DNA from: Siphonodentalium dalli
Lineage: Eukaryota; Mollusca; Scaphopoda; Gadilida; Siphonodentaliidae
Assembly (NCBI GenBank): GCA_032622095.1
Contig: CP136067.1
Span: forward strand, 201,434,181 to 201,498,180
DNA: 64,000 nucleotides
Direction: 5' to 3'
Shown: piece after piece, positions 6,825 to 48,236 of the stretch
Position numbering within the stretch: the first letter of the stretch is position 1
Layout of the letters: each line of letters starts with the position of its first letter
Notes under the pieces: model-generated
The model's input: only the letters and a program-made list of their open reading frames with translations
The model's database searches: none
Told to the model about the DNA's origin: nothing
Program-made: the position numbers and the translations under genes

Positions 6825-6830
6825 ACTCAC

Positions 6831-15452: not shown

Positions 15453-15800
15453 ACGAAATTGAAAAATCAACGAGTGATTGATCTGTGTTTCATGTAATTT
15501 GCAACAATGAATGTTGTTTTGAGGATTTTATGGATTATTGTGTACCGTACCACAGATACACGAAGACTAGGCAATTCAATGTTAAGTGTACCGTATTCTA
15601 TTTCATGACATCATGTGTAAACTGTGTTTGTGACATGATTATTGCACTTTCACTTTCGACAGGAGCTTGGAGGCATTGTTGAATTTGTTCTCTAATTATC
15701 AAAGGTTGCACAGGTATTTGCTTATCATTAATTTAATCATTTGATTTAGGACTGAAAAAGAATTGTTTCTGTTTTCAAATTGAAAAGATCAATCGTACTG

Positions 15801-16186
15801 CCCTGCTGGACAAAACAAGTGTCCATTGGCACCGCAGTGTGTTTGCCGGTCGGCGGCGGTGTCAGAGTTTGTAACTGCCGTTGAGCACCGCTGCCGAGCA
15901 GCAAGTACACCATGGTCGACCGTCAAGTACACATGTACACCATGGCCGAAAAGCAACTACAATGGGGCCGAATGGCATGTACACCGTGGTTAGATTTCTG
16001 GTTTATATTGTCTTTTTTCAGTTTAATGAATGCACACAGCAGCAACTACACCATGGTCGAATGGCAATTACACCGCGGCCCAACTGTAGTTTATAGCTGG
16101 TGGAGACGCTGTGTAGTTGCATTTCGGCCGCAGTGGCAATGCTAAGCGCACCGTGGTTAAGTGGACACTTGTTTTGCCCAGCAGGG
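15801..16186. mobile_element. CCCTGCTGG-ended MITE, copy 1 (left arm)
   Basis: The ends CCCTGCTGGACAAAACAAG and CTTGTTTTGCCCAGCAGGG form TIRs of about 27 bp. TA follows the right end (16187-16188) and TG precedes the left, probably a mutated TA. The interior repeats short words around CACCATGGTCGA and GGCCGAANNGCAACTAC, alternating in orientation. A second copy lies at 18593-18991. No transposase is encoded. Confidence 0.85.
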
Positions 16187-16796
16187 TAGTACATGTGTAT
16201 TCAGTTCAAATTCATACAGATATCTTTCAGACGCAGTTTCTATCAAGATAAAATAAACAGCGGAAATACATTCATAAATGCTGCGTAAATTGAATTAGTT
16301 TACTCACGATGGATGTCCATTGAAACTCTTTGATGGTTTAACACTGCTTAATCCACTATCCATAAGCACAAGTGAATGTTACACACTGTGTTTTCATATT
16401 GTACATGTACATGCTCCTATATTAATTGTAATTCATAATTATTAATAAGGAATTAATTTAATACTCCGATTCAATGCTGACGAAATAAATACGGTAACAT
16501 CTCCCGGCCATGTGGTCTCGCTTTGATTTTCCAGGAATTTATGTGACGTCATAAGCCATACATAGAAATCGTTCAAATGTATTTTTAGCTTCGAATCATT
16601 CAGTCTCAGACAGATAGTGCATTTGACACTTCACATCGTGTGACCTCAAAAAACTTAAACTGCCAATCATCGTGGCACGAGGGATCACCTTTTGATGAAT
16701 GCCGACAATGAATGTTGGTTTTGGAGAATTCATTTGATATTTTGCTACAACATTCAAGCTGTTTCTTTATACTTGTACGCTCTCCGTATTTGGCCT

Positions 16797-16868
16797 AGGC
16801 GCGCAATTGATCGCTCACTGGTTTTCAATTTTAGCCGCGTGATGGTGCGCAAGAGCGATCGCGCGCCT
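16797..16868. repeat. GC-rich 72-nt hairpin
   Basis: AGGCGCGC...GATCGCTC on the left pairs with GAGCGATC-GCGCGCCT on the right; an AATT bulge interrupts the left side and about 34 nt form the loop. The mirrored copy is at 40906-40977. No function is assigned. Confidence 0.6.
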
Positions 16869-17240
16869 CAAAAATTAAAGTCTGATCTTTCTGTTGATTC
16901 CAACGTTAACACTATTACTTAATATTTTTACCACTTTAGAGGGCGTTCTTTATTAGATGAACATTATTTTACCCACACGTCATGATTCCATGATTTTAAG
17001 GTGAAGTTGAACAGAAGCAAGCGCTAAGCTTTGTTTTCATTAACGCATGCTCACACCAGGACGGTGTGGTAATAATAGCATGATTTTGTCGGGCGCCTTG
17101 GTTTCTTTACAGCCCTTCATTTGATTAACTCCGTCTCGGGTCTATAAATAGGCCCTCGGGCTGTTAATCATTCCTGTCGGGTCCAGGTGCTAAGTACTGC
17201 AGTAGCGTTCTTTAATGTGCACACACCAAGGCGGAATACA

Positions 17241-17881
17241 GGAGAAGTCGGCCCCGCTACGAAGTCGGTCCAGCTATTAACATCAGTTAGTGACATGTTT
17301 ACTCAATTGAGTAACATACATGTATATCAGGTGTCACGGAAACCTTGTTCAACACTACATTGTATATGACTTAGTGTTGATCTTTATCGGCGTTTCGCTG
17401 ACTGCTTCCATGTGGAAATCCCTCTGGCGTGACGCCCATTATAATTATGACAGGACATTGTTTAGGTCTATAGATTAATTGGCTGACTAAGTGTGAAGGT
17501 TCGTATCTGGTCTAATACCATGTCTTGTATATATGGCTATTTTTCCGGTACAGATTTAAATTTCCGTTTAACGAACCCTATCAACATATCTGCGTAAAGC
17601 CATGACAGTGAGCGATAAGCAAATGGATTGCCAGCAGGTGATATAATCCTCCTTGACACCATGTGACCAAAACATGGTCACATAAAATGGAATGCTACAA
17701 GGTACCGTAATGTACATGTGATCCCTTATGACACCGTGTGGCGAAATGTCGGTCTCATCTTATTGTGCCACAGGCATTAACAAGCAGTAAAATAATAATG
17801 GGGCCGACTTTTCTTGACCAATCTTTAATTTACCCGGGCCGACTTCTCTTGTGGCCGACCTTGTTTTGGGCTGACTTCTCC
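17241..17881. repeat. Inverted cluster of GAAGTCGGCC motifs
   Basis: GGAGAAGTCGGCC at 17241 faces GGCCGACTTCTC and related words at 17836-17881, with several more copies of GAAGTCGG in between and just beyond (for example near 17985). It could be a TIR element of about 640 bp with repetitive ends; no target duplication is visible. The mirrored copy is at 39893-40533. Confidence 0.4.
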
Positions 17882-18091
17882 AGATACCCCGAGGCATGTA
17901 CACAGGTCAGCCATTAATGTCTGCACCCCCAATCAGACAACATACTGCACAACAACAAAATACCTGGATAGATGTTGTAATGGGGGAAGTCGGTATTTTT
18001 GCATTCGGATCTTTATTCAGTGATCTCAAATGAGACTTTTCAGCTTTACAAACTTGGTATCTGACCGAGTTCTGATTTTTGTCAGAATACC

Positions 18092-18165
18092 CTGACCAGG
18101 TTGCGATCCCCGGCCCGCTAGCACGAGAGACCAGTACACTACAGTACCTCTCGGCTATCGACTTC
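18092..18165 (-). repeat. tRNA-like SINE head with A and B boxes
   Basis: On the minus strand, TAGCCGAGAGGT (18158-18147) resembles a pol III A box and GGGATCGCAACC (18110-18099) resembles a B box, at tRNA-like spacing. It starts GTCGATAGCCGAGAGGTACT and ends CTGGTCAGGG. A functional tRNA is unlikely because the stem ends do not pair well. The mirrored copy at 39609-39682 is on the plus strand. Confidence 0.45.
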
Positions 18166-18592
18166 CCTAGATTTAAGTAATTGACCCCCTCTATAGTGGT
18201 GTCACCCCATGTAATACATGTACTGCTGTATTATATAAGAAATGAACGGCGGGTTCAATGTGGTCATCGGATTTTGACCGCAAGAAAAATTCAGCAAACT
18301 GCATGAACCCCGAAGTAGTAAAGCCAAAAAAATATATACCTGTGTTTCCGGTGACCCGCCCACCCCTATTTCGGAGCTCCCGACGGTTTTCATTTTATTC
18401 ATTTTGCAAAATTCCAACGCATCCCGTTTTATTAGCTCAACTTACTTTGTAAGTTTGAGCTATTGCCATGGGTTGGCGTCCGTCATCCGTGTGTCTGTGT
18501 GTCCGTCAACAATTTACTTTGTCGCGGGCTACAGGTTGTGCCTTTAGTCTGATCTCTTTGAAATTTGTCATGAATGTTGACATTGACATGTA

Positions 18593-18991
18593 CCCTGCTG
18601 GACAAAACAAGTGTCCATTGGCACCGCGGTGTATTTGCCATTCGGCCGCAGTGTCAGAGTTTGTAACTGCAGTTGAGCGCCGCAGCCGAGCAGCAAGTAC
18701 ATGTACACCGCGGCCGAACGACAAGTACACATGTACACCATGGCCAAAAAGCAACTACAACGGGGCCGAATGGTATGTACAGTTGTACACCGTGGTTAGA
18801 TTTCTGGTTTGTATTGTTTTTTTTCAGTTTGATGAATGTACACAGCGCCGCAACTACACCATGGCCGAATGGCAAATAAACCAATGCCCAACTGTAGTTG
18901 GCCAGTGGAGCCGCGGTGTAGTTGCATTTCAGCCGCGGTAGCAATGCTAACCGCACCGTGGTTAAGTGGACACTTGTTTTTCCCAGCAGGG
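18593..18991. mobile_element. CCCTGCTGG-ended MITE, copy 2 (left arm)
   Basis: TIRs CCCTGCTGGACAAAACAAG and CTTGTTTTTCCCAGCAGGG. It is inserted into a 164-bp unit whose uninterrupted form reads GACATGTAGATGGGA. Here the TA in that word is duplicated on both sides (18591-18592 and 18992-18993). This proves the element's exact ends and its TA target duplication. Confidence 0.92.
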
Positions 18992-21018
18992 TAGATGGGA
19001 ACGAATCATTTTGGGGTCTTTCGATCGAAAAACATCTTCGCGGCCATCTTGGATTTCAAGGTTGTGCCTTTAGTCTGATCTTCATGAAATTTGTCATGGA
19101 TGTTAATATTGACATGTAGATGGGAACGAGTAATTTTTGGGTTGTTCGGCCAAAAAAACATGGCCGCCAGCAGCCATCTTGGATGTTACTCTTTGCATGA
19201 CTAAATCCTTTGGCGCGAGCTACAGATCGTAGCTTTGGTCGGATCTTCATGAAATTTGTCAAGGATGTTAATATTGACATGTAGATGGGAACGAGTAATT
19301 TTTGGGTTGTTCGGCCAAAAAAACATGGCCGCCAGCAGCCATCTTGGATGTTACTCTTTGCATGACTAAATCCTTTGGCGCGGGCTACAGGTCGTAGCTT
19401 TGGTCGGATCTTCATGAAATTTGTCATGGCTGTTGACCTTGACATGTAAATGGGAACGAGTCCTTTTCGGGTCATTCGGTCAAAAGACATGGCCGCCAAC
19501 AGCCATCTTGGATTTTACTCTTTGCATGACTAAATCCTTTGGCACAGGCCACAGATCCTAACTTTGGTCAGATTATTATGAAATTTGTCATGAATGTTGA
19601 CATTGACATGTAGATGGGAATGAGTCATTTTGGGGTAATTTGGCCAAAAAACATGGCCGCTGGCAGCCATCTTTGATTTCAAAATAAAATAGATTGGCGC
19701 GGTCTACAGGTCGTACTGTTCGTCTGATTATCATGAAATTTGTCATAGATGTTAATATTGACATGTAGATGGGAACGAGTTATTTTGGGGTCGTTAGGCC
19801 AAAAAACATGGCCACCAGTAGCCATCTTGGATTTTACTCTTTGCATGATTAAATACTTGGGCGCGGGCTACAGGTCGTAGCTTTGGTCGGATCTTCATGA
19901 AATTTGTCATGGCTATTGACCTTGACATGTAAATGGGAACGAGTCCTTTTGGGGTCATTCGGTCAAAAGACATGGCCGCCAGCAGCCATCTTGGATTTTA
20001 CTCTTTGCATGACTAAATCCTTTGGCACAGGCTACAGGTCCTAACTTTGGTCAGATTATTATGAAATTTGTCATGAATGTTGACATTGACATGTAGATGG
20101 GAATGAGTCATTTTGGGTAATTTGGCAAAAAAACATGGCCGCTGGCAGCCATCTTTGATTTCAAAATTAAATAGATTGGCGCGGTCTTCATGTCGTACTG
20201 TTCGTCTGATTATCATGAAATTTGTCATGGATGTTAATATTGACATGTAGATGGCAACGAGTTATTTTGGGGTCGTTAGGCCAAAAAACATGGCCACCAG
20301 TAGCCATCTTGGATTTTACTCTTTGCATGACTAAATCCTTCGGCGCGAGCTACAGGTCGTAGCTTTGGTCGGATCTTCATGAAATTTGTCATGGCTGTTG
20401 ACCTTGACATGTAAATGGGAACGAGTCCTTTTGGGGTCATTCGGTCAAAAGACATGGCCGCCAGCAGCCATCTTGGATTTTACTCTTTGCATGACTAAAT
20501 CCTTTGGCACAGGCTACAGGTCCTAACTTTGGTCAGATTATTATGAAATTTGTCATGAATGTTGATATTGACATGTAGATGGGAATGAGTCATTTTGGGG
20601 TAATTTGGCCAAAAAACATGGCCACTGGCAGCCATCTTTGATTTCAAAATTAAATAGATTGGCGCAGTCTTCCATGTCGTACTGTTCGTCTGATTATCAT
20701 GAAATTTGTCATGGATGTTAATAATGACAGGCTGATGGGAATGAGTCATTTTGGGGTAGTTCGACCAAAAAACATAGCCGTCATGAGCATCTTGGATTTT
20801 ACTCTTTTCATGACTAAATCCTTCGGCACAGGCTCTAGGTCGTACATTTGGTCAGATCATTATGATATTTGTCATGGCTATTGACATGTACAATGTAGAT
20901 GGGAACGAGTCATTTTGGGGTCGTTTGACCAAAAAACATGGCCGTCAGCGGTCATCTTGGATTTCAATATGCAATCCATAAGCACGGGCTACAGGTCGTA
21001 TCTTTTGTCGGATCATTA

Positions 21019-22364
21019 TTAGCTCAACTTACTTTGTAAGTTTGAGCTATTGCCATGGTTTGGCGTCCGTCATCCGTGTGTGCGTGTGTCCCTCAACAAT
21101 TTCCTTTGGCGCGGGCTACAGGTCGTACCTTTGGTCTGATCTTTATGAAATTTGTCATGAATGTTGACCTTGACATGTAGATGGGAACGAATGGCCGCTG
21201 CTGGCCATCTTTGATTTCAAAATTCAATCCATTGGCGCAGGCTACAGGTCGTGCTGTTCGTCTGATCATCATGAAATTTGTCATGGATGTTAATATTGAC
21301 ATGTAGATGGGAACGAGTGATTTTGGGGTCGTTCAGCCAAAAATCATGGCCGCCAGCAGCCATCTTGGATTTTACTCTTTGCATGACTAAATTCTTTGTC
21401 GCGGGCTACAGGTTGTAGCTTTGGTCAGAACTTCATGAAATTTGTCATGGATGTTAACAATGACATGTAGATGGGAACGAGTGATTTTGGGGTCGTTCGG
21501 CCAAAAAACATGGCCACCAGCAGCCATCTTGGATTTTACTCTTTGCATGACTAAATCCTTTGGCGCGGGCTACAGGTCGTACCTTTGGTCTGATCTTTAT
21601 TAAATTTGTCATGAATGTTGATATTGACATGTAGATGGGAACGAGTCATTTTGGGGTCATACGACCAAAAAACATGGCCACTGGCGGCCATCTTGGATTT
21701 CAAAATTCAATCCATTGGCACGGGCTACAGGTCGTACTGTTCGTCTGATCATCATGATATTTATCATGGATGTTAATATTAACATGTAGATGGGAACGAG
21801 TGTTTTTGGGGTCGTTTGGCTAAAAAACATGTCCGCCAGCAGCCATATTGGATTTTACTCTTTGCATGACTAAATCCTTTGGTGCGGGCTACAGGTCGTA
21901 GCTTTTGGTCGTAACTTCATGAAATTTGTCATGGATGTTAACAATGACATGTAGATGGGAAACGAGTTATTTTGGGGTCGTTCAGCCGAAAAACATGGCC
22001 GCCAGCAGCCATCTTGGATTTTACTCTTTGCATGACTAAATCCATTGGCACAGGCTACAGGTCGTACCTTTGATCAGATCATTATGAGATATGTAAAGGC
22101 TGTAGATGGGAACAGGTCATTTTGGGGTAATTCGGAAAAAAACATGGCTGCCATTGGCCATTTTAGAATTTACTCTTTGCACCATAATCACCACATCCCT
22201 GATCCGATCATTATGAAACCTGTCATGCATGTTGATATTGACATGTACATCTAGTCTTACTTAGACATTTCAATTAGCACCTTTCCTATTCCTCCATTTA
22301 CTGTCAACCATTAAATCATTCCCCTACTAAGTTGAGCTACACTACAGTGTCATTGACACTTTCA
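21019..22364 (-). mobile_element. Second HINE-like element nested in the first (left arm)
   Basis: It has the same 3' hairpin and CTAA end (21022-21019) and the same 5' start TGAAAGTGTCAATGAC (22364). A TAGCTCAACTTAG word just inside the 5' end is an inverted match to the 3' hairpin. It holds about seven 164-bp units. The flanks GGATCATTA (left) and TTACATTTGTCATGG (right) join into a normal 164-bp unit of the outer element (GGATCATTATGAAATTTGTC), so the insertion made no target duplication, as expected for Helitron-group elements. Confidence 0.7.
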
Positions 22365-23029
22365 TTACATTTGTCATGGATGTTAAAATTGACATGTAGA
22401 TGGGAAACGGGTAATTTTGGGGTTGTTCGGCCAAAAACATGGCCGCCAGCAGCCATCTTGGATTATACTCTTTGCATGACTAAATTCTTTGTCAAGGGCT
22501 ATAAGTCGAATTTTTGGTCCAATCATCATGAGATTTGTCATGGATGTTAACAATTACATGTAGATGGGAAAAGATTCATTTTAAATTCAACCAAAAAACC
22601 TGGTCGCCAGCAGCCATCTTGTATTTTACTCTTTACACAACTAAATCCTTTGACACGGGCTACATGTCGTATCTTTTGTCGGATCATCATGAAATTTGTG
22701 AGGGATGTTAACAATGACATGTAAATTCATTGTAGGAAGGAGTCTTTTTTGGGTCATTTGCCAAAAACATGGCTGTCGCGGCCATCTTTGATTTTAATCT
22801 TTGCATAACTAGGCCTTTCAACTTTCCACATTCCTAATCGCTCCATTAACTGTAACACATGAAATTATTCCCTTTCCATGTTAGCTACAGTCAGTACAGT
22901 GCCATTGACACTTTCATAATTACATTTCAGTCAATTCACATTTTCAGCTGCATATACATGTACCGGTATATGTAAACCAATTTCATCATTAAAGAAATTG
23001 CAAATTCATCGTTGATTCCATCATCTCAA

Positions 23030-23450
23030 TATTTCATTAAAGTGAGACTTTATGTTCACGCATTGATTCATTCAGGCAACAATTTCTCCATTTCTACACT
23101 GTTCATTGCATTGATCGTCATCAATGGGGATAATCTATAATTCTATATGTATATCATCGTTAACTATTAAAGTGACATTTCTCTTCCACCCAATCGATAT
23201 TGCATTAAAATGACGCTTCATATTCATTACACTTCATTCAATAATTTCTGTTTCTACATCACTTATTGCATTGATTGCCTTCAGGTAAGGTAAGCTATGT
23301 CCGACTCAAATATTAAAGTGACGCATCATATTCACTACACTTCATTCAATAATTTCTTTTTCTACATAGTTTACATATATTGCATTGATTGCCTGCAGCT
23401 AAGGTAATCTATGTCCGACTCAAATAATACAAATATTAAAGGCATTCCAT
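23030..23450. repeat. Degenerate tandem repeat, about 110-130 bp units (left arm)
   Basis: ATTAAAGTGAC words start units near 23037, 23167, 23205 and 23313. They are followed by ACACTTCATTCAATAATTTC and ATTGCATTGATTGCCT. The last two units are clearly alike, the earlier ones diverged. Mirrored at 34324-34744. Confidence 0.75.
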
Positions 23451-23510
23451 TTCCATCCATTAATTCTAAGGAAACTTCTGCTGTGATATATATATATGTA
23501 TATATGCATA

Positions 23511-24050
23511 CAGGGTACTACATGTGCTACACCACTCGGATAAATGTCTGTGTCATCACACTAAAATACCATGTTATAACTTGAATTGATATATTCGTAA
23601 TCGTATATAGTCACCAATAGCTGTGTTACTACCGTAGTACCTGACATTGCCCATCTAGTGAACTATTCAAACCCAACAGGCCTGGTTGATTTCGCTGTGG
23701 GATGATGGTTCACTTCCATCCTCAAGCTAATTATGCCAGTTCATGGCATAATTTTGTTCTGACGTGCAGGGGTAGATATGCTTGAGGCCCCACCACAGTT
23801 CAATTCACACCAGGTTCTCAGCTATTATTATCTTATGTTCGAACTTTACTCATATGTTTGGACTGATCATAACTATGATTTTAATGCTGGGTTTGAATAG
23901 TTCACTATATGGGCAATGTCCGTTACTACGGTGGTAACCCGGCTATTGGTGACTATATACGATTACGAATATATCAATCCAAGTTCTAGCATGGTATTTG
24001 TGTGACGACACAGACATTTCTCCGAGTGGTGTAGCACATGAAGTACCCTG
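23511..24050. mobile_element. 540-bp MITE with about 170-bp TIRs (left arm)
   Basis: Starts CAGGGTACTACATGTGCTAC and ends GTAGCACATGAAGTACCCTG, flanked by TA on each side (23509-23510 and 24051-24052). The TIRs run about 170 bp with scattered differences (for example GCTGTGTTACTACCG versus CGGTGGTAACCCGGC). The central 210 bp holds a small TATGCCAGTTCATGGCATA hairpin and no ORF. The mirrored copy is at 33724-34263. Confidence 0.9.
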
Positions 24051-24052
24051 TA

Positions 24053-25121
24053 CGGAACATCCTATAATTATTGTAACATTGAACTTAATGATCAACTTGG
24101 TGGTTGCTCCATTACGTGTCACGTACGATCATATTATTACTAATGCAATAATGACATGAAGTATCCTCAGGCATGTAGCCAAGACCAGTATTGCTAATCT
24201 ACCTAAAGCAATTGCATCGGTGAACTCTCTTTTATTTTATGTCCTTACATTACTCATAGACTGTCGACAGTTATTTTCATAGTAATACGTATAAGAAGTG
24301 AATCAAATAAAACATGGATTAAAAAAATTCTGGCCAGCTTGCCTGTGTGATGAGAATTGGAATCGATTTGATTCGTTTCAGTAAACACAAAGCCACAGCC
24401 AAAATCGAAAGGGTGATGCAAATGCTTATTATATTAGACCTCATATCATGACTAGACCAATCCGGTCGCAATCATGCCGCAATTCTTTATTCACATTAAA
24501 GTATATATAGTATCTGTTCACCTGCTCATAATAATAGTCTCTTCGTGTAATTCGCGTACTATGCATTCAGTATTGGAATGCATGCATGTGTTCTATGTTC
24601 ATATCTTTCGGATAAATCTGGATGAGTGTAATCCACTTCATTATCTATTGAAAATTCAAGTATTCAAGTCTAAAGTATGGCCAAGCATAAAGCACTGGGC
24701 GTTATTACGCACAATACTTTAGGTCAGTATGCAGTTATCAGTTACACATTTCAAACGTTTAAAATCTACGCAGAATTGTTCAGCAAGTTATTCAGAGTTA
24801 CATCAGAGGACAAATCATAAGGACATAAGCTGAGGTCCTGTACTCTCTGGACAGATGACTTGGCCTCCCTTACACCGGTGAAGAGTCCAGCTAAGGGTAT
24901 CCACAACCAGCAATCTGTCTAAGGCGTCTAGATAAGCAGAGGGGATTAACTTCTGTCAGGTCCAAAATCACCCAGTCTGAAGGACGACAATACAATTCAC
25001 AAGCGACCCAGAACCAGTCACCGGGAACAGGAACAAGAGATAATGCAAGCATTGCGAATTGCCAGCTGAACCACCGGCTGGCGAATGAGATATGAATGGT
25101 GTGCCAGACGTAAAAGGGGCG
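24053..25121. other. No gene recognised (left arm)
   Basis: The plus-strand ORF at 24474-24722 (82 aa) and the minus-strand ORF at 24968-25273 (101 aa) match no family I recognise. No repeat was seen by eye. Confidence 0.45.
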
Positions 25122-25575
25122 GTCCGAGCTGGACCGGGCTGTTCTGTTCTAGTTAGCTTCGTTACGGTAAATATATTTAGCGTCGGCGGTATTTTGAGGG
25201 TTAATTGCCAGGCTTTGGTGGGAGATTCGCCCTTGTTTCTTCGTGAATGTAGTAGATGGTACTTCCGCAACATATATGTAAGGAGTTATTTGCTGTAGTG
25301 GGAGATACACGTGGCTGCGAGTTTTGTTATTGTGGACACAATATTGCAATTATGGCTGAATCTTGTAAGTTTATGGGTTAATATCGACACTTCCATTCGA
25401 CCGTGGCCACCGCCCGTTGTATGTGGGTTTCCATGACAACCAGTCACTGCTATGGTCACTAAAATCACCATAGACACCACAGGGGCGGTCCGGGCTGGTC
25501 CGGGCTGTTAGCTTGGTTAATGTAAACACATTCGGCGACGGTGGCATTTTGGGGGTTAATTGCCAGGCTTTGGTA

Positions 25576-26620
25576 TGAACGTGGTATGAAATTTCACCAA
25601 AAATCACTATTGGGGTTCTTGTCATATTTCAACAATATATATTTACATACTAAGTGTGATCATCACTAAATCCAGCATTCCGATTGGTCGGCGCCCACGT
25701 GGCTAGTTGCAATTATTTCTCGGTGAACGCGCAACAGCTCATAACTTCAGCCTCATAATTACATCGACACGTCATCAGTTTCGGAAAGAAGAACGCTTAA
25801 TGTTTTGGGCGCATTTGGACTCGCGCAGAATTGATTTAATACATCATCGGGGTTCAATATAAAGAGAAATTGTTCCTGTTAACTTTTGCAAAGGGTGCTA
25901 TGGGATATTTTGGGCTTGTTTTGTCACGATACACTTTTCGATTTAAATACATTTACAAAAGTGGCTTTTTCGCTAAATGTATATAAATATAAGGATTAAC
26001 TGTCATGTGGACTGTTTTTATGGAGATATAACCGTGAGGTAAGTGGTCATAACTTGTATGTAAAACCCTTCGGGTTTTACACAAGTTATGACCACTTACC
26101 TCACGGTTACATCTCCATAAAAACAGTCCACATGACAGTTAATCCTTATATGAGCAGTATAATTGAGGAATATTATTAATAATGAATATTTTAACTTAAT
26201 GGAACCAAAATTATCACTTTGGCTAAAAATGGCTGCCAAAAATGGTGACCAAAATGTGTAAAATGGTAAATATTCACCCAGCTTGCCATGAAATCACTTA
26301 AAAGTTGTGGATGATGAATAAAATTTGCTTTTCTGTGATATATACATTGAATACTAACATTTATGATGCATCTTGGATAAGTATTACTATTACATTACAA
26401 AAACTATTGGAACGTTCTCTCAAAATCAGCAAACGAAAATCACTTTTCAGGTTTGGACCATTTTTTCAAGTAAAATGGAACTATCTTTTGTATTTATTGT
26501 TTTGATCCGTCTTAAATGCGTCACACATGTGTATTTAGAAAAAGGAATACTCACAAAACCTGGTAGAAAAGTTAGTATTTTCAAATATATCCCGGACATT
26601 ACGTGACACGACAATATCAT
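25576..26620 (-). repeat. Dispersed repeat, minus-strand copy, at the spacer's left edge
   Basis: Reverse-complement words from here recur in order at 44820-45300 on the plus strand: TTCTAAA...CACGCATTTAAGAC, AACAATAAANACAAAAGATA, ACTTGAAAAAATNGT, CATCATCC...ACTTTTAAG, GCCAAAGTGA, and GGTGAAATTTCATACC. The two copies are perhaps 75-80 percent alike. A 165-bp hairpin (25987-26151) and about 350 bp of other sequence interrupt this copy. No ORF or ends were identified. Confidence 0.65.
25987..26151. repeat. 165-bp hairpin with about 80-bp arms
   Basis: ATATAAGGATTAACTGTCAT at the left is matched by its reverse complement ending at 26151, and pairing continues to AAAACCC-TTC-GGGTTTT at 26062-26078. 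Only a 2-nt bulge near 26059 and one or two mismatches are seen. A transcript would fold into a long double-stranded RNA. Confidence 0.95.
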
Positions 26621-27049
26621 TTTTAATCAGACAGTATGTAAATTTTGTCGAAAACTTCTTATGGGAGGGGTTCTGGTCAAGATTTTAACGGAAATGAGCA
26701 GACCTCTGAAACTGAACTGAGAGGGGCATAACTATGTACCTACTCTGGCCCGATAACATGTGTAACCGTTATAGGTAAGTGAGTGTCAGACCAGGTAACA
26801 CGTCTATCGGGATAAGCATCCCCACACCTGGTACAATAGAATGACGGAGAAATAGCCAGCGTAATGCACTGGCATGTGGAATAGAAGGACAGTTAGACAG
26901 TCAAACTTGGATTTGAGTGAAAAACTGCTTAATAACATCAAATTGTGGGCCATTGACATAATTATTGTTTGACTGATGTCAGGAAAACCGTTTCCTCCAT
27001 TGTATATATAAAAGGCCACCAAGATGAAGAACTCTCGGACATTACCTCG
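26621..27049. other. No gene recognised
   Basis: Only short ORFs and no clear repeats. It lies between the dispersed repeat and the 43-bp array in the palindrome spacer. Confidence 0.45.
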
Positions 27050-30369: not shown

Positions 30370-30580
30370 ATTTGCGAGATTGTCGATCTATCCGCACGCG
30401 AGCTACAGTTATAACACGCGTCCAAAACGCATAGGTATCACACTCTATGTCGCCACGTATCTTCACTTGAGCTACAATTCTAACACGCGTCCAAACCTAC
30501 GAGATCTCACTGTCTATGTCGCTACGAATCTCCACACGTGCCACGACTCTAAGGCGCGTCACATTGATTTGTTCAGTCAT
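30370..30580. repeat. 69-bp tandem repeat with ACGCGT motifs, about 3 copies
   Basis: GAGCTACAGTTATAACACGC at 30399 recurs as GAGCTACAATTCTAACACGC at 30468 and as a diverged GTGCCACGACTCTAAGGCGC at 30537. Each is followed by a CTCTATGTCGC-type word. Confidence 0.8.
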
Positions 30581-30893
30581 GCCGTTAATTGGTGACGTGA
30601 GTGCGTCATTCAGAAATATTCTATTCAAGTGGTCGGAAATATTTTCTTCACCCAAGTATAGAATAAAATGTCAGCAAGACCCTTACTGGCATTTGTGGAC
30701 AAGCCGCAATATTTAGTGTATCCTCTGTCCTCAAAACACCAGCTTGTCATCGACACTGATATCCTTCAATGGCCCGGTATTTGTTCTTAGTTTGTTAGAA
30801 TGCATACTGATTGCACGAACCGAACGAAATTTGCACAGCGCGATAACATGTGGACAAAGCATATGAGCATGTATGCACCCTGCGTCTGGAAAT

Positions 30894-31543
30894 GTCTATA
30901 GCGATTGACTGTAGCGATGGATATGGCTATAGCGCTGGGAAAGCGACTGCTCCAGATTGTTTACCAATTAGTCTGAAGGAAACAGCGAAGTTGTGGTCGT
31001 GTTAACGCCATCTCACGAAACAATCTGGTACTATGTATACAGGGTTCGCGCTGTCACTTGCCAAATTTGCCAATGGCAAAGTAATTCACATTTGGCAAAA
31101 AGTTGTTTTAATTGGCAAAAAAATTTGCAAGTCACTTTTGATTCCTCAGGAAAGTATAATACTATTTGTCAACCAATACCACTCATTTTCATTTGGCAAA
31201 AGTAAATTTTAGGCCAGCGCGGATCCTGAATAAATATCCATTATCTTTTAACTTGAGCGCAGATAAAGTCAAGTGTTTGTATGTCAGGATTTTTGTGGAC
31301 ACTGTCATGACACTTAGCTGGATGGGCGTGTGTCCTATTTGAAAGATTGACATTCTACTATAGATATATAGCTGCTATAAACATAAATTATCATAAACTG
31401 GACGTTCGTCACTTCAGAAGGCGTTGTTAGCGTGACCACCACTGCCCAGTTTCCTTCAGAATAATTGGTAACCAACCAGGAGCAGTCGCTTTTCCGGCGC
31501 TATTGACATCTCCACCGCCATAGACATGTACATCGCTATAGAC
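30894..31543. mobile_element. 650-bp element with about 115-bp TIRs
   Basis: TCTATAGCGAT...AAGCGACTGCTCC...CTGAAGGAAAC at 30895-31010 faces its imperfect reverse complement at 31420-31543 (GTTTCCTTCAG...GGAGCAGTCGCTT...ATCGCTATAGA). No ORF. A smaller hAT-like element is nested at 31040-31228. Confidence 0.7.
31040..31228. mobile_element. Small hAT-like MITE, 189 bp
   Basis: The ends CAGGGTTCGCGCTG and CAGCGCGGATCCTG are inverted with two differences; CAGGG ends are usual for hAT elements. The inside repeats TTTGGCAAAA. The flanking 8 bp (TATGTATA and AATAAATA) agree at only five positions, so the target duplication is decayed or the family call is wrong. Confidence 0.55.
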
Positions 31544-31559
31544 CGGTGTGACTAAACAC

Positions 31560-32660
31560 CGCCGGGATCAGCCCGAACCGCCCCTGCGGAGTATAGGGGT
31601 GATTTTAGTGGCAATATGTGTGTGGGGTGTTATGGAAACACACCACGCACGGACCGGGCTCGCGGCCACACAGAAGTGCCGATATTAAACCTTAACCTTA
31701 CCGGATTCAGCCAGAATTATAATATTGTGCCCGCAATAACAAGACACGCAGCCCGGACGCCCGTATCGCCCTCGTACCGACATATATGAAGCGGAACTAC
31801 CGTCGACTACACACACGAAGAAACAAGGGCGAATCGCCAAGCAAAGCCTGGCAATTAACTCCCAAAATGCCGCCATCGCCGAATATGTTACAGTTAACGA
31901 AGCTAACAGTCCGGACTACCCCGGAACGCCCCTGTGGCGTCTAAGTGTGATTTTAGTGGCCATAGCAATGACTGTGTGTCATGGAGACCAATATAAGCAC
32001 GGACGGTGGTCACAGCCAAACAGAAGTGCCGATATTTTAACCCCTAAACTTACCAGATTCAGCCAGAATTACAATAACAAGACTCACAATAACAATAATA
32101 ATACTCGCAGCCCGGACCCCCGTATCGCCCTCGTACGGCTAATATATGTAGCGGAAATACCGTCGACTACATTCACGAAGAAACAAGGGCGAATCGTCTA
32201 CCAAAGCCTGGCAATTAACCCCCAAAATGCCACCGTCGCCGAATGTGTTTACATTAACCAAGCTAACAGCCCGGACCAGCCCGGACCGCCCCTGTGGTGT
32301 CTATGGTGATTTTAGTGACCATAGCAGTGACTGGTTGTCATGGAAACCCACATACAACGGGCGGTGGCCACGGTCGAATGGAAGTGTCGATATTAACCCA
32401 TAAACTTACAAGATTCAGCCATAATTGCAATATTGTGTCCACAATAACAAAACTCGCAGCCACGTGTATCTCCCACTACAGCAAATAACTCCTTACATAT
32501 ATGTTGCGGAAGTACCATCTACTACATTCACGAAGAAACAAGGGCGAATCTCCCACCAAAGCCTGGCAATTAACCCTCAAAATACCGCCGACGCTAAATA
32601 TATTTACCGTAACGAAGCTAACTAGAACAGAACAGCCCGGTCCAGCTCGGACCGCCCCTT
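31560..32660. repeat. 355-bp tandem array, three units
   Basis: The word CGCCCCTGTGG (or close) with GATTTTAGTGGCCATAGCA recurs near 31577, 31925 and 32286, ending near 32652. Other shared words are GAAGTGCCGATATT and ACGAAGAAACAAGGGCGAAT. The right arm of the large palindrome begins inside the second unit at 32199, so the left arm contains only the end of unit 2 and unit 3, at 25122-25575. The plus-strand ORFs in it vary between units and are not evidently coding. Confidence 0.9.
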
Positions 32661-33723
32661 TTACGTCTGGCACACCATTCATATCTCATTCGCCAGCCGG
32701 TGGTTCAGCTGGCAATTCGCAATGCTTGCATTATCTCTTGTTCCTGTTCCCGGTGACTGGTTCTGGGTCGCTTGTGAATTGTATTGTCGTCCTTCAGACT
32801 GGGTGATTTTGGACCTGACAGAAGTTAATCCCCTCTGCTTATCTAGACGCCTTAGACAGATTGCTGGTTGTGGATACCCTTAGCTGGACTCTTCACCGGT
32901 GTAAGGGAGGCCAAGTCATCTGTCCAGAGAGTACAGGACCTCAGCTTATGTCCTTATGATTTGTCCTCTGATGTAACTCTGAATAACTTGCTGAACAATT
33001 CTGCGTAGATTTTAAACGTTTGAAATGTGTAACTGATAACTGCATACTGACCTAAAGTATTGTGCGTAATAACGCCCAGTGCTTTATGCTTGGCCATACT
33101 TTAGACTTGAATACTTGAATTTTCAATAGATAATGAAGTGGATTACACTCATCCAGATTTATCCGAAAGATATGAACATAGAACACATGCATGCATTCCA
33201 ATACTGAATGCATAGTACGCGAATTACACGAAGAGACTATTATTATGAGCAGGTGAACAGATACTATATATACTTTAATGTGAATAAAGAATTGCGGCAT
33301 GATTGCGACCGGATTGGTCTAGTCATGATATGAGGTCTAATATAATAAGCATTTGCATCACCCTTTCGATTTTGGCTGTGGCTTTGTGTTTACTGAAACG
33401 AATCAAATCGATTCCAATTCTCATCACACAGGCAAGCTGGCCAGAATTTTTTTAATCCATGTTTTATTTGATTCACTTCTTATACGTATTACTATGAAAA
33501 TAACTGTCGACAGTCTATGAGTAATGTAAGGACATAAAATAAAAGAGAGTTCACCGATGCAATTGCTTTAGGTAGATTAGCAATACTGGTCTTGGCTACA
33601 TGCCTGAGGATACTTCATGTCATTATTGCATTAGTAATAATATGATCGTACGTGACACGTAATGGAGCAACCACCAAGTTGATCATTAAGTTCAATGTTA
33701 CAATAATTATAGGATGTTCCGTA

Positions 33724-34263
33724 CAGGGTACTTCATGTGCTACACCACTCGGAGAAATGTCTGTGTCGTCACACAAATACCATGCTAGAACTTGGATTGA
33801 TATATTCGTAATCGTATATAGTCACCAATAGCCGGGTTACCACCGTAGTAACGGACATTGCCCATATAGTGAACTATTCAAACCCAGCATTAAAATCATA
33901 GTTATGATCAGTCCAAACATATGAGTAAAGTTCGAACATAAGATAATAATAGCTGAGAACCTGGTGTGAATTGAACTGTGGTGGGGCCTCAAGCATATCT
34001 ACCCCTGCACGTCAGAACAAAATTATGCCATGAACTGGCATAATTAGCTTGAGGATGGAAGTGAACCATCATCCCACAGCGAAATCAACCAGGCCTGTTG
34101 GGTTTGAATAGTTCACTAGATGGGCAATGTCAGGTACTACGGTAGTAACACAGCTATTGGTGACTATATACGATTACGAATATATCAATTCAAGTTATAA
34201 CATGGTATTTTAGTGTGATGACACAGACATTTATCCGAGTGGTGTAGCACATGTAGTACCCTG
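33724..34263. mobile_element. 540-bp MITE (right-arm copy)
   Basis: Mirror of 23511-24050, with the same CAGGGTAC ends and TA flanks. Confidence 0.9.
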
Positions 34264-35409
34264 TATGCATATATACATATATATATATCACAGCAGAAGT
34301 TTCCTTAGAATTAATGGATGGAAATGGAATGCCTTTAATATTTGTATTATTTGAGTCGGACATAGATTACCTTAGCTGCAGGCAATCAATGCAATATATG
34401 TAAACTATGTAGAAAAAGAAATTATTGAATGAAGTGTAGTGAATATGATGCGTCACTTTAATATTTGAGTCGGACATAGCTTACCTTACCTGAAGGCAAT
34501 CAATGCAATAAGTGATGTAGAAACAGAAATTATTGAATGAAGTGTAATGAATATGAAGCGTCATTTTAATGCAATATCGATTGGGTGGAAGAGAAATGTC
34601 ACTTTAATAGTTAACGATGATATACATATAGAATTATAGATTATCCCCATTGATGACGATCAATGCAATGAACAGTGTAGAAATGGAGAAATTGTTGCCT
34701 GAATGAATCAATGCGTGAACATAAAGTCTCACTTTAATGAAATATTGAGATGATGGAATCAACGATGAATTTGCAATTTCTTTAATGATGAAATTGGTTT
34801 ACATATACCGGTACATGTATATGCAGCTGAAAATGTGAATTGACTGAAATGTAATTATGAAAGTGTCAATGGCACTGTACTGACTGTAGCTAACATGGAA
34901 AGGGAATAATTTCATGTGTTACAGTTAATGGAGCGATTAGGAATGTGGAAAGTTGAAAGGCCTAGTTATGCAAAGATTAAAATCAAAGATGGCCGCGACA
35001 GCCATGTTTTTGGCAAATGACCCAAAAAAGACTCCTTCCTACAATGAATTTACATGTCATTGTTAACATCCCTCACAAATTTCATGATGATCCGACAAAA
35101 GATACGACATGTAGCCCGTGTCAAAGGATTTAGTTGTGTAAAGAGTAAAATACAAGATGGCTGCTGGCGACCAGGTTTTTTGGTTGAATTTAAAATGAAT
35201 CTTTTCCCATCTACATGTAATTGTTAACATCCATGACAAATCTCATGATGATTGGACCAAAAATTCGACTTATAGCCCTTGACAAAGAATTTAGTCATGC
35301 AAAGAGTATAATCCAAGATGGCTGCTGGCGGCCATGTTTTTGGCCGAACAACCCCAAAATTACCCGTTTCCCATCTACATGTCAATTTTAACATCCATGA
35401 CAAATGTAA

Positions 35410-36755
35410 TGAAAGTGTCAATGACACTGTAGTGTAGCTCAACTTAGTAGGGGAATGATTTAATGGTTGACAGTAAATGGAGGAATAGGAAAGGTGCTAA
35501 TTGAAATGTCTAAGTAAGACTAGATGTACATGTCAATATCAACATGCATGACAGGTTTCATAATGATCGGATCAGGGATGTGGTGATTATGGTGCAAAGA
35601 GTAAATTCTAAAATGGCCAATGGCAGCCATGTTTTTTTCCGAATTACCCCAAAATGACCTGTTCCCATCTACAGCCTTTACATATCTCATAATGATCTGA
35701 TCAAAGGTACGACCTGTAGCCTGTGCCAATGGATTTAGTCATGCAAAGAGTAAAATCCAAGATGGCTGCTGGCGGCCATGTTTTTCGGCTGAACGACCCC
35801 AAAATAACTCGTTTCCCATCTACATGTCATTGTTAACATCCATGACAAATTTCATGAAGTTACGACCAAAAGCTACGACCTGTAGCCCGCACCAAAGGAT
35901 TTAGTCATGCAAAGAGTAAAATCCAATATGGCTGCTGGCGGACATGTTTTTTAGCCAAACGACCCCAAAAACACTCGTTCCCATCTACATGTTAATATTA
36001 ACATCCATGATAAATATCATGATGATCAGACGAACAGTACGACCTGTAGCCCGTGCCAATGGATTGAATTTTGAAATCCAAGATGGCCGCCAGTGGCCAT
36101 GTTTTTTGGTCGTATGACCCCAAAATGACTCGTTCCCATCTACATGTCAATATCAACATTCATGACAAATTTAATAAAGATCAGACCAAAGGTACGACCT
36201 GTAGCCCGCGCCAAAGGATTTAGTCATGCAAAGAGTAAAATCCAAGATGGCTGCTGGTGGCCATGTTTTTTGGCCGAACGACCCCAAAATCACTCGTTCC
36301 CATCTACATGTCATTGTTAACATCCATGACAAATTTCATGAAGTTCTGACCAAAGCTACAACCTGTAGCCCGCGACAAAGAATTTAGTCATGCAAAGAGT
36401 AAAATCCAAGATGGCTGCTGGCGGCCATGATTTTTGGCTGAACGACCCCAAAATCACTCGTTCCCATCTACATGTCAATATTAACATCCATGACAAATTT
36501 CATGATGATCAGACGAACAGCACGACCTGTAGCCTGCGCCAATGGATTGAATTTTGAAATCAAAGATGGCCAGCAGCGGCCATTCGTTCCCATCTACATG
36601 TCAAGGTCAACATTCATGACAAATTTCATAAAGATCAGACCAAAGGTACGACCTGTAGCCCGCGCCAAAGGAAATTGTTGAGGGACACACGCACACACGG
36701 ATGACGGACGCCAAACCATGGCAATAGCTCAAACTTACAAAGTAAGTTGAGCTAA
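35410..36755 (+). mobile_element. Nested HINE-like element (right arm)
   Basis: Mirror of 21019-22364, ending at the hairpin and CTAA at 36752-36755, with the same clean insertion into a 164-bp unit. Confidence 0.7.
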
Positions 36756-38782
36756 TAATGATCCGACAAAAGATACGACCTGTAGCCCGTGCTTATGGAT
36801 TGCATATTGAAATCCAAGATGACCGCTGACGGCCATGTTTTTTGGTCAAACGACCCCAAAATGACTCGTTCCCATCTACATTGTACATGTCAATAGCCAT
36901 GACAAATATCATAATGATCTGACCAAATGTACGACCTAGAGCCTGTGCCGAAGGATTTAGTCATGAAAAGAGTAAAATCCAAGATGCTCATGACGGCTAT
37001 GTTTTTTGGTCGAACTACCCCAAAATGACTCATTCCCATCAGCCTGTCATTATTAACATCCATGACAAATTTCATGATAATCAGACGAACAGTACGACAT
37101 GGAAGACTGCGCCAATCTATTTAATTTTGAAATCAAAGATGGCTGCCAGTGGCCATGTTTTTTGGCCAAATTACCCCAAAATGACTCATTCCCATCTACA
37201 TGTCAATATCAACATTCATGACAAATTTCATAATAATCTGACCAAAGTTAGGACCTGTAGCCTGTGCCAAAGGATTTAGTCATGCAAAGAGTAAAATCCA
37301 AGATGGCTGCTGGCGGCCATGTCTTTTGACCGAATGACCCCAAAAGGACTCGTTCCCATTTACATGTCAAGGTCAACAGCCATGACAAATTTCATGAAGA
37401 TCCGACCAAAGCTACGACCTGTAGCTCGCGCCGAAGGATTTAGTCATGCAAAGAGTAAAATCCAAGATGGCTACTGGTGGCCATGTTTTTTGGCCTAACG
37501 ACCCCAAAATAACTCGTTGCCATCTACATGTCAATATTAACATCCATGACAAATTTCATGATAATCAGACGAACAGTACGACATGAAGACCGCGCCAATC
37601 TATTTAATTTTGAAATCAAAGATGGCTGCCAGCGGCCATGTTTTTTTGCCAAATTACCCAAAATGACTCATTCCCATCTACATGTCAATGTCAACATTCA
37701 TGACAAATTTCATAATAATCTGACCAAAGTTAGGACCTGTAGCCTGTGCCAAAGGATTTAGTCATGCAAAGAGTAAAATCCAAGATGGCTGCTGGCGGCC
37801 ATGTCTTTTGACCGAATGACCCCAAAAGGACTCGTTCCCATTTACATGTCAAGGTCAATAGCCATGACAAATTTCATGAAGATCCGACCAAAGCTACGAC
37901 CTGTAGCCCGCGCCCAAGTATTTAATCATGCAAAGAGTAAAATCCAAGATGGCTACTGGTGGCCATGTTTTTTGGCCTAACGACCCCAAAATAACTCGTT
38001 CCCATCTACATGTCAATATTAACATCTATGACAAATTTCATGATAATCAGACGAACAGTACGACCTGTAGACCGCGCCAATCTATTTTATTTTGAAATCA
38101 AAGATGGCTGCCAGCGGCCATGTTTTTTGGCCAAATTACCCCAAAATGACTCATTCCCATCTACATGTCAATGTCAACATTCATGACAAATTTCATAATA
38201 ATCTGACCAAAGTTAGGATCTGTGGCCTGTGCCAAAGGATTTAGTCATGCAAAGAGTAAAATCCAAGATGGCTGTTGGCGGCCATGTCTTTTGACCGAAT
38301 GACCCGAAAAGGACTCGTTCCCATTTACATGTCAAGGTCAACAGCCATGACAAATTTCATGAAGATCCGACCAAAGCTACGACCTGTAGCCCGCGCCAAA
38401 GGATTTAGTCATGCAAAGAGTAACATCCAAGATGGCTGCTGGCGGCCATGTTTTTTTGGCCGAACAACCCAAAAATTACTCGTTCCCATCTACATGTCAA
38501 TATTAACATCCTTGACAAATTTCATGAAGATCCGACCAAAGCTACGATCTGTAGCTCGCGCCAAAGGATTTAGTCATGCAAAGAGTAACATCCAAGATGG
38601 CTGCTGGCGGCCATGTTTTTTTGGCCGAACAACCCAAAAATTACTCGTTCCCATCTACATGTCAATATTAACATCCATGACAAATTTCATGAAGATCAGA
38701 CTAAAGGCACAACCTTGAAATCCAAGATGGCCGCGAAGATGTTTTTCGATCGAAAGACCCCAAAATGATTCGTTCCCATCTA

Positions 38783-39181
38783 CCCTGCTGGGAAAAACAA
38801 GTGTCCACTTAACCACGGTGCGGTTAGCATTGCTACCGCGGCTGAAATGCAACTACACCGCGGCTCCACTGGCCAACTACAGTTGGGCATTGGTTTATTT
38901 GCCATTCGGCCATGGTGTAGTTGCGGCGCTGTGTACATTCATCAAACTGAAAAAAAACAATACAAACCAGAAATCTAACCACGGTGTACAACTGTACATA
39001 CCATTCGGCCCCGTTGTAGTTGCTTTTTGGCCATGGTGTACATGTGTACTTGTCGTTCGGCCGCGGTGTACATGTACTTGCTGCTCGGCTGCGGCGCTCA
39101 ACTGCAGTTACAAACTCTGACACTGCGGCCGAATGGCAAATACACCGCGGTGCCAATGGACACTTGTTTTGTCCAGCAGGG
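38783..39181. mobile_element. CCCTGCTGG-ended MITE, copy 2 (right arm)
   Basis: Mirror of 18593-18991 with TA on both sides. Confidence 0.92.
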
Positions 39182-39608
39182 TACATGTCAATGTCAACAT
39201 TCATGACAAATTTCAAAGAGATCAGACTAAAGGCACAACCTGTAGCCCGCGACAAAGTAAATTGTTGACGGACACACAGACACACGGATGACGGACGCCA
39301 ACCCATGGCAATAGCTCAAACTTACAAAGTAAGTTGAGCTAATAAAACGGGATGCGTTGGAATTTTGCAAAATGAATAAAATGAAAACCGTCGGGAGCTC
39401 CGAAATAGGGGTGGGCGGGTCACCGGAAACACAGGTATATATTTTTTTGGCTTTACTACTTCGGGGTTCATGCAGTTTGCTGAATTTTTCTTGCGGTCAA
39501 AATCCGATGACCACATTGAACCCGCCGTTCATTTCTTATATAATACAGCAGTACATGTATTACATGGGGTGACACCACTATAGAGGGGGTCAATTACTTA
39601 AATCTAGG

Positions 39609-39682
39609 GAAGTCGATAGCCGAGAGGTACTGTAGTGTACTGGTCTCTCGTGCTAGCGGGCCGGGGATCGCAACCTGGTCAG
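39609..39682 (+). repeat. tRNA-like SINE head (right arm)
   Basis: Plus-strand mirror of 18092-18165, with A-box-like TAGCCGAGAGGT and B-box-like GGGATCGCAACC. Confidence 0.45.
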
Positions 39683-41587
39683 GGTATTCTGACAAAAATC
39701 AGAACTCGGTCAGATACCAAGTTTGTAAAGCTGAAAAGTCTCATTTGAGATCACTGAATAAAGATCCGAATGCAAAAATACCGACTTCCCCCATTACAAC
39801 ATCTATCCAGGTATTTTGTTGTTGTGCAGTATGTTGTCTGATTGGGGGTGCAGACATTAATGGCTGACCTGTGTACATGCCTCGGGGTATCTGGAGAAGT
39901 CAGCCCAAAACAAGGTCGGCCACAAGAGAAGTCGGCCCGGGTAAATTAAAGATTGGTCAAGAAAAGTCGGCCCCATTATTATTTTACTGCTTGTTAATGC
40001 CTGTGGCACAATAAGATGAGACCGACATTTCGCCACACGGTGTCATAAGGGATCACATGTACATTACGGTACCTTGTAGCATTCCATTTTATGTGACCAT
40101 GTTTTGGTCACATGGTGTCAAGGAGGATTATATCACCTGCTGGCAATCCATTTGCTTATCGCTCACTGTCATGGCTTTACGCAGATATGTTGATAGGGTT
40201 CGTTAAACGGAAATTTAAATCTGTACCGGAAAAATAGCCATATATACAAGACATGGTATTAGACCAGATACGAACCTTCACACTTAGTCAGCCAATTAAT
40301 CTATAGACCTAAACAATGTCCTGTCATAATTATAATGGGCGTCACGCCAGAGGGATTTCCACATGGAAGCAGTCAGCGAAACGCCGATAAAGATCAACAC
40401 TAAGTCATATACAATGTAGTGTTGAACAAGGTTTCCGTGACACCTGATATACATGTATGTTACTCAATTGAGTAAACATGTCACTAACTGATGTTAATAG
40501 CTGGACCGACTTCGTAGCGGGGCCGACTTCTCCTGTATTCCGCCTTGGTGTGTGCACATTAAAGAACGCTACTGCAGTACTTAGCACCTGGACCCGACAG
40601 GAATGATTAACAGCCCGAGGGCCTATTTATAGACCCGAGACGGAGTTAATCAAATGAAGGGCTGTAAAGAAACCAAGGCGCCCGACAAAATCATGCTATT
40701 ATTACCACACCGTCCTGGTGTGAGCATGCGTTAATGAAAACAAAGCTTAGCGCTTGCTTCTGTTCAACTTCACCTTAAAATCATGGAATCATGACGTGTG
40801 GGTAAAATAATGTTCATCTAATAAAGAACGCCCTCTAAAGTGGTAAAAATATTAAGTAATAGTGTTAACGTTGGAATCAACAGAAAGATCAGACTTTAAT
40901 TTTTGAGGCGCGCGATCGCTCTTGCGCACCATCACGCGGCTAAAATTGAAAACCAGTGAGCGATCAATTGCGCGCCTAGGCCAAATACGGAGAGCGTACA
41001 AGTATAAAGAAACAGCTTGAATGTTGTAGCAAAATATCAAATGAATTCTCCAAAACCAACATTCATTGTCGGCATTCATCAAAAGGTGATCCCTCGTGCC
41101 ACGATGATTGGCAGTTTAAGTTTTTTGAGGTCACACGATGTGAAGTGTCAAATGCACTATCTGTCTGAGACTGAATGATTCGAAGCTAAAAATACATTTG
41201 AACGATTTCTATGTATGGCTTATGACGTCACATAAATTCCTGGAAAATCAAAGCGAGACCACATGGCCGGGAGATGTTACCGTATTTATTTCGTCAGCAT
41301 TGAATCGGAGTATTAAATTAATTCCTTATTAATAATTATGAATTACAATTAATATAGGAGCATGTACATGTACAATATGAAAACACAGTGTGTAACATTC
41401 ACTTGTGCTTATGGATAGTGGATTAAGCAGTGTTAAACCATCAAAGAGTTTCAATGGACATCCATCGTGAGTAAACTAATTCAATTTACGCAGCATTTAT
41501 GAATGTATTTCCGCTGTTTATTTTATCTTGATAGAAACTGCGTCTGAAAGATATCTGTATGAATTTGAACTGAATACACATGTACTA

Positions 41588-41973
41588 CCCTGCTGGGCAA
41601 AACAAGTGTCCACTTAACCACGGTGCGCTTAGCATTGCCACTGCGGCCGAAATGCAACTACACAGCGTCTCCACCAGCTATAAACTACAGTTGGGCCGCG
41701 GTGTAATTGCCATTCGACCATGGTGTAGTTGCTGCTGTGTGCATTCATTAAACTGAAAAAAGACAATATAAACCAGAAATCTAACCACGGTGTACATGCC
41801 ATTCGGCCCCATTGTAGTTGCTTTTCGGCCATGGTGTACATGTGTACTTGACGGTCGACCATGGTGTACTTGCTGCTCGGCAGCGGTGCTCAACGGCAGT
41901 TACAAACTCTGACACCGCCGCCGACCGGCAAACACACTGCGGTGCCAATGGACACTTGTTTTGTCCAGCAGGG
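41588..41973. mobile_element. CCCTGCTGG-ended MITE, copy 1 (right arm)
   Basis: Mirror of 15801-16186. Confidence 0.85.
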
Positions 41974-42387
41974 CAGTACGATTGATCTTTTCAATTTGAA
42001 AACAGAAACAATTCTTTTTCAGTCCTAAATCAAATGATTAAATTAATGATAAGCAAATACCTGTGCAACCTTTGATAATTAGAGAACAAATTCAACAATG
42101 CCTCCAAGCTCCTGTCGAAAGTGAAAGTGCAATAATCATGTCACAAACACAGTTTACACATGATGTCATGAAATAGAATACGGTACACTTAACATTGAAT
42201 TGCCTAGTCTTCGTGTATCTGTGGTACGGTACACAATAATCCATAAAATCCTCAAAACAACATTCATTGTTGCAAATTACATGAAACACAGATCAATCAC
42301 TCGTTGATTTTTCAATTTCGTTTACTGTCGGGAGCGGGTTGCCGTCAGCCGAAATAGGTCTCGGTCACGAATTAGATATTTGTTTCC

Positions 42388-42730
42388 ATTTCATAAACTC
42401 TATGATTAAACTATAAGCGTTTCATAAACTCTATGATTAAACTATAAGCGTTTCATAAACTCTATGATTATACTATAAGCGTTTCATAAACTCTATGATT
42501 ATAGTATAAGGGTTTCATATGCTCTATAATTAAACTATAAGCGTTTCATAAACTTTATGATTAAATTATAAGCGTTTCATAAACTCTATGATTATAATAT
42601 AAGCGTTTCATAAACTCTATGATTATACTATAAGCGTTTCATAAAATCTATGATTAAACTATAAACCTTTCATAAACTCTATGATTATAATATAAGCGTT
42701 TCATAAACTCTATGATTATACTATAAGCGT
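42388..42730. repeat. 31-bp minisatellite, about 11 copies
   Basis: Unit GCGTTTCATAAACTCTATGA followed by TTAAACTATAA. Variants have TTATACTATAA or TTATAATATAA. It starts about 65 bp outside the right palindrome arm. Confidence 0.95.
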
Positions 42731-44795: not shown

Positions 44796-44814
44796 GAATA
44801 ATGTTGTAGACATT

Positions 44815-48232: not shown

Positions 48233-48236
48233 GCTA

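Follow-up and report, generated by a model that had tools for sequence, protein, structure and literature searches.

HINE elements are recognized by a published set of hallmarks: a 5′ subterminal repeat near the terminus and a 3′ counterpart 38–60 bp in, a palindrome 8–35 bp from the 3′ end, and insertion at TT or T-rich sequence with no target-site duplication. The reconstructed transposon Helraiser carried 3′-flanking DNA with it in ~12% of transpositions (PMC4778049). The locus described here lies in a 64,000-nucleotide stretch of the genome of the scaphopod Siphonodentalium dalli (C7:201434181–201498180; genome of 2.23 Gb in 9 sequences), which is referred to as the window, and comprises a palindrome with arms of 10,123 bp that contain a HINE-like element. 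The analysis suggests that this palindrome arose when a rolling-circle element transposed locally in inverted orientation and read through its 3′ end into flanking DNA, a reading to which a probability of roughly 0.55 is assigned.

Direct comparison of the left arm with the reverse complement of the right arm revealed identity at 10,123 of 10,123 bases, and similarity dropped to chance immediately beyond the edges of both arms. The base-for-base match that had been claimed in the original prediction, with the same edges, therefore is borne out by the count of mismatches. A palindrome produced by chance is excluded. Other inverted repeats of comparable size in the window are located only inside a 174-bp array at 48.5–64.4 kb, where the longest exact match is 496 bp. 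The arms were first thought to consist of old, diverged repeats, which is wrong. Each arm instead is a single element, 9.4 kb when whole and 8.7 kb as cut within the palindrome, with 1.44 kb of flanking DNA, and the supposed diverged repeats are the central ~164-bp minisatellite of the element itself. The first 687 bp of the element in the left copy (14766–15452) are situated outside the palindrome. A 601-bp query across the left outer edge at 15453 produced dozens of matches in the genome at 95–98% over the whole query length, and the right inner edge at 32199 is uninterrupted both in a second copy of the locus (C7:203142328–203142927) and in a 360-bp tandem repeat family. A giant transposon with the arms as terminal inverted repeats was rejected, as position 15453 is inside a continuous element elsewhere and the right inner edge is native. 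The 360-bp family, which crosses that edge at 31665–32622, has members that are ~75–80% alike at many places in the genome.

The genome was searched with 600-bp pieces that spanned each palindrome edge, and the second copy of the locus was fetched and aligned to the window. The spacer, the right inner edge and the right flank each have one further copy in the genome, at C7:203.13–203.16 Mb in inverted orientation. This copy, termed B (the window copy being A), is positioned ~1.7 Mb from the window on the same chromosome and is ~0.15% different. Read in the window orientation, B consists of the left flank L, 219 bp, the spacer, 1.44 kb from the inner end of the right arm, a 2.2-kb segment X that has no counterpart in the window, the right flank R (42320–48515 in this alignment) and a further flank R2 (64361–83820 in window numbering), with a 15.8-kb block between R and R2 present in the window only. 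Mismatches between A and B were 0.09–0.35% by segment. Collinearity of B with the window extends over both flanks and the spacer, yet B possesses neither the left arm nor the arm element, and is the reference state without the palindrome. No third copy of the palindrome was found elsewhere, the right flank being found at two places in the genome only, A and B. As X and the 219 bp of B are absent from the window, deletions are needed in the history of the latter, and derivation of the window from a complete B by simple insertion alone was rejected. The two native junctions sit on opposite arms, which gave rise to the idea that recombination between the arms had flipped the spacer; this also was rejected, as A and B agree in how the spacer is oriented to its two flanks.

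Alignment with B defines four junctions in the window (Table 1). At the first (14765/14766) the 5′ end of the element abuts a TA dinucleotide, and at the third (33639/33640) a TA is abutted by the 3′ end of an element. Two precise element ends at two TA sites that are unoccupied in B reveal two element insertions. A single copy with both of its flanks and its empty site was available at no locus, and the insertions may have duplicated the 2-bp TA, which is seen at both unoccupied sites. At the second junction (25575/25577) the captured flank ends and is followed by an added T and then by the spacer. The 219 bp of B that are missing here correspond to a short interspersed nuclear element (SINE)-like repeat, also present at 45250–45508, whose last ~27 bp remain at the junction. 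At the fourth junction (42321/42322) the broken element is joined to R with a shared 2-bp GT, and X is gone. The captured flank occurs in B once only, beside the spacer, and is carried by no other copy of the element. As the DNA behind the left copy is the flank of the right copy, the left copy derives from the right one. The order of a precise 5′ end at 14766, an internal 3′ end at 24134 and then 1,441 bp of source flank is the pattern of 3′ transduction. The GT microhomology at 42321/42322 and the 1-bp insertion at 25576 also would fit end joining or template switching. The palindrome would then stem from template switching during replication (microhomology-mediated break-induced replication, MMBIR, or fork stalling and template switching, FoSTeS) or from an inverted duplication at a staggered break, in which the element is copied but takes no other part, and an arm, a spacer and an inverted arm are the usual outcome of such events. 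However, the left junction then would coincide exactly with the 5′ terminus of the element on a TA at odds of ~1 in 10,000, and this origin is judged very improbable.

Table 1. Features of the palindrome locus in window coordinates.
Feature	Position	Strand	Remarks
Left palindrome arm	15453–25575	+	Element minus its first 687 bp, then captured flank
Right palindrome arm	32199–42321	-	1,441 bp of native flank, then 5′-truncated element reversed
Left, full-length element copy, 9,369 bp	14766–24134	+	Pearl/HINE-like, non-autonomous Helentron-like
Source element copy without 5′-terminal 687 bp	33640–42321	-	Placed by ends of other copies and by arm comparison
Central ~164-bp tandem repeats, three arrays	19068–22723	+	Mirrored at 35051–38706
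Left flank L	890–14765	+	Common to B; 0.15–0.22% mismatches outside 30-bp array
Spacer, native DNA	25577–32198	+	Same orientation relative to flanks as in B; 6/6,622 mismatches against B
Right flank R	42322–48515	+	Common to B, where it follows the 2.2-kb X
TA target of left insertion	14764–14765	.	Unoccupied in B (..ATTATCATATTCTAGG..)
Captured flank a, 1,441 bp	24135–25575	+	Duplicate of DNA adjoining the source 3′ end; not element
Native flank a′, source of captured piece	32199–33639	+	Joined to spacer in B; 5/1,440 mismatches
Extra base T at novel left inner junction	25576–25576	.	219 bp of B missing here
TA target of source insertion	33638–33639	.	Unoccupied in B (..GGTGTTAATATTACTAATGC.. 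in element orientation)

The left copy of the element begins GCAACCACC... and ends ...ACGATCATAT. The start at 14766 is common to six of seven other genome copies with unrelated flanks, the remaining copy being rearranged. The 3′ end is fixed by 38 other copies, all of which start at positions 286–296 of the query, and by alignment of seven ends; this end corresponds to 33640 in the right arm and 24134 in the left arm. Both ends were found in the right order and orientation at ten other loci, nine of which span 8.0–15.3 kb. Repeats within the 164-bp arrays match at 80–91% and also are present in the rearranged genome copy. Subterminal inverted repeats, identical across the aligned copies, are located at the 5′ end (AGCAACCACC) and ~30 bp from the 3′ end (GGTGGTTGCT), the latter distance being slightly below the published HINE range of 38–60 bp. 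A TACGTG-T-CACGTA palindrome is placed between GGTGGTTGCT and the 3′ end in the left copy and in all seven aligned copies. Thus, subterminal inverted repeats, a 3′ palindrome and central tandem repeats, each of which is characteristic of HINEs, all are found here. Helitron-type Rep domains (PF14214) are abundant in the genome, many within open reading frames (ORFs) of >1,500 amino acids. The arm element is classed as a pearl/HINE-type, non-autonomous Helentron-like repeat with many genome copies. No Pfam match was detected in two stop-to-stop ORFs inside the arm or in one across its inner edge, and the arms had no match in Rfam, which as far as these tests extend supports the earlier view that the arms harbor no host gene.

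The favored reading comprises three steps. In the first, the 9.37-kb element inserted in leftward orientation at a TA located 1.44 kb to the right of the spacer; this is shown by B, which retains the site without the element. In the second, this source would have been copied from its 5′ end, the 3′ hairpin bypassed and 1,441 bp of flank included, and the product would have inserted, inverted, at a second TA ~8 kb further left with a precise 5′ junction and an aberrant 3′ junction at which 219 bp of target were lost and one base was added. Of this step, the 5′ junction on the left and the captured flank can be seen directly in the window, and rolling-circle copying is their probable origin. In the third step, a deletion via the 2-bp microhomology would have removed the 5′-terminal 687 bp of the source together with the neighboring 2.2 kb; the truncated end state is evident from the alignment with B, whereas the deletion event and this order of losses are presumptive. 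The inner edges of the palindrome then would have been set by the end of read-through and the outer edges by the later deletion, so that the native 6.6-kb spacer now lies between two inverted copies of the same 10,123-bp sequence. Read-through transposition is favored because both junctions coincide with element ends and the TA sites are unoccupied in B, because the piece past the left 3′ end is the flank of the source itself and single-copy in B, and because the architecture of the element, the abundance of Rep domains and the Helraiser precedent fit.

Several observations weigh against this reading. Loss of 219 bp of target with addition of one base on the 3′ side is atypical of clean rolling-circle insertion, a separate deletion on the right must be assumed, and the target preference is TA, whereas HINEs are reported to prefer TT. 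Taken by itself as a DNA fold, the 3′ hairpin (z = -0.87) is weak and no stronger than shuffled sequences, and both arms are known from assembled sequence. The main rival to read-through transposition explains directly why 219 bp are lost, why a base is added and why the arms are perfectly identical. In this rival, two local insertions in opposite orientations were followed by a break near the left 3′ end that was repaired from the right copy by break-induced replication or ectopic gene conversion. The repair would have copied the element with 1.44 kb of its flank, and the end then would have been joined to the spacer with 219 bp lost. Inverted repeats recombine readily. Nevertheless, this pathway takes an additional event, as repair must follow two insertions, and must involve conversion over the full length, as the other family copies that were compared are 1.4–6.5% different from the left copy. 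Repair accordingly is viewed as unlikely, albeit the strongest of the alternatives to read-through transposition.

Identity between A and B is 99.85% over the aligned 45 kb and ~95% at 120–180 kb, whereas at 242 kb A had no partner that could be found. Either A and B are haplotypes that the assembly left unmerged, or they form a true inverted segmental duplication of patchy identity. The two-copy inverted block encompasses C7:201434181–201617200 and 203020258–203163564; within the first ~84 kb its aligned parts differ by ~0.15%, and further in the difference is ~5%. A and B both border on N at the same point, with at least 10 kb of N directly before the window and exactly 10,000 N beside B (203163565–203173564). 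No 10-kb gap between A and B was found in the parts sampled, which left ~0.5 Mb outside the sampling. The proximity of N, the two-copy state of the locus with A and B as potentially unmerged haplotypes, and the difficulty that perfect 10-kb repeats pose for reads shorter than the arms are compatible with an assembly artifact in which the second arm stems from mis-joined reads or haplotypes. However, a fold-back or mis-join would not stop exactly at the 5′ end of an element on a TA target, and the edges match element ends and target sites left empty in the second assembled copy. Moreover, continuity with B holds for the spacer as well as for the two flanks, and collapsing the arms leaves the orientation of the spacer as the sole ambiguity, an orientation that agrees with B. 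An artifact therefore is considered improbable, and a genuine palindrome generated by read-through transposition continues to be preferred.

The age of the duplication was gauged from the differences between A and B, the sole local yardstick, which number 67 in 45,558 sites (0.147%). This rate predicts ~15 mismatches per 10,123 bp and a Poisson probability of none of 3e-7, and the 95% upper bound on arm divergence from 0/10,123 is 0.03%. The minisatellite arrays are of equal length in both arms. The arm duplication is younger than the split between A and B, or else conversion keeps the arms identical; youth alone suffices because the array lengths also agree. The original prediction of a very recent duplication therefore is upheld, whereas gene conversion that holds the arms identical, which it also had offered, may occur but is not required. 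The palindrome is a recent structural variant that is absent from B, for which a function is neither needed nor indicated.

Other features were noted in and near the window. A 30-bp tandem array at 4522–6516 (65 copies) differs between A and B in length and sequence far above its surroundings, and an ORF at 6787–7221 on the minus strand has a weak match to the PAN domain, below the curated cut-off. The window-only block between R and R2 is a 15,845-bp insertion at 48516–64360, a second and larger inverted structure whose last 360 bp are past the window. It is bounded by a 9-bp target duplication, GAAAGCATG, at 48507–48515 and 64361–64369, has a perfect 90-bp terminal inverted repeat (AGCTCCATGAATTCCGTTCCC...), and includes two opposed arrays of the 174-bp repeat with 40 and 51 matched monomers at ~98% that meet near 55,480. 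This insertion is a foldback-type DNA transposon rather than plain satellite DNA, comparable to Tetris with its 8–10-bp duplications (PMC4079207), against 9 bp here. Outside the window, at C7:201689130–201729461, a 200-bp probe matched ten times at 100% with 4.46-kb spacing in a single orientation; the region is a young tandem array of ~45 kb.

The palindrome is an uncommon outcome of an ordinary agent. The broader proposition that a rolling-circle element can write a long perfect palindrome in one step by inverted, nearby read-through transposition, in which unique flank is copied along with the element and the arms become longer than the element itself, is evenly poised. If true and common in HINE-rich genomes, the process would give rise quite generally to young palindromes and to loci prone to inversion. 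As a worked natural example in which one assembly contains both unoccupied targets, the locus shows how a transposon of ordinary appearance may build a long perfect palindrome and carry host DNA with it. It also cautions against taking every perfect 10-kb palindrome as a sign of gene conversion between the arms, of a sex chromosome or of an assembly error. Long identical inverted arms around a spacer likewise are found in large sex-chromosome and amplicon palindromes, but the arms here are a transposable element plus flank in which no gene was found. The left arm moreover is absent from B, and the analogy with sex chromosomes and amplified genes that initially had been drawn is not supported.

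The closest described elements are pearl/Cg_HINE of bivalves, non-autonomous Helentrons that share with the arm element short inverted repeats near both ends, a 3′ palindrome, a central array of ~160-bp repeats, many copies, and no coding capacity found (PMC7492417). The element here differs in its length of 9–15 kb, its dozens of central repeats, and a TA target instead of T-rich or TT sequence; the likeness is one of architecture and not of sequence comparison with the oyster elements. DINE-1/HINE-Mo elements similarly have a subterminal inverted repeat at the 5′ end and ~30–60 bp from the 3′ end, a 3′ palindrome and central repeats (PMC4067079), the comparison again being one of architecture, and with a different target preference. 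In a limited search of the literature, nothing pertinent emerged on palindromes that Helitron read-through had produced. The nearest precedent for the event itself is 3′ transduction by Helraiser, in which a precise 5′ end, a bypassed 3′ end and a captured 3′ flank also are combined, and in which the 1.6-kb cassette is similar in size to the 1.4 kb of flank captured here (PMC4778049). In contrast with Helraiser, the event in S. dalli is natural, local and inverted, such that read-through, if this indeed was the mechanism, yielded a palindrome.

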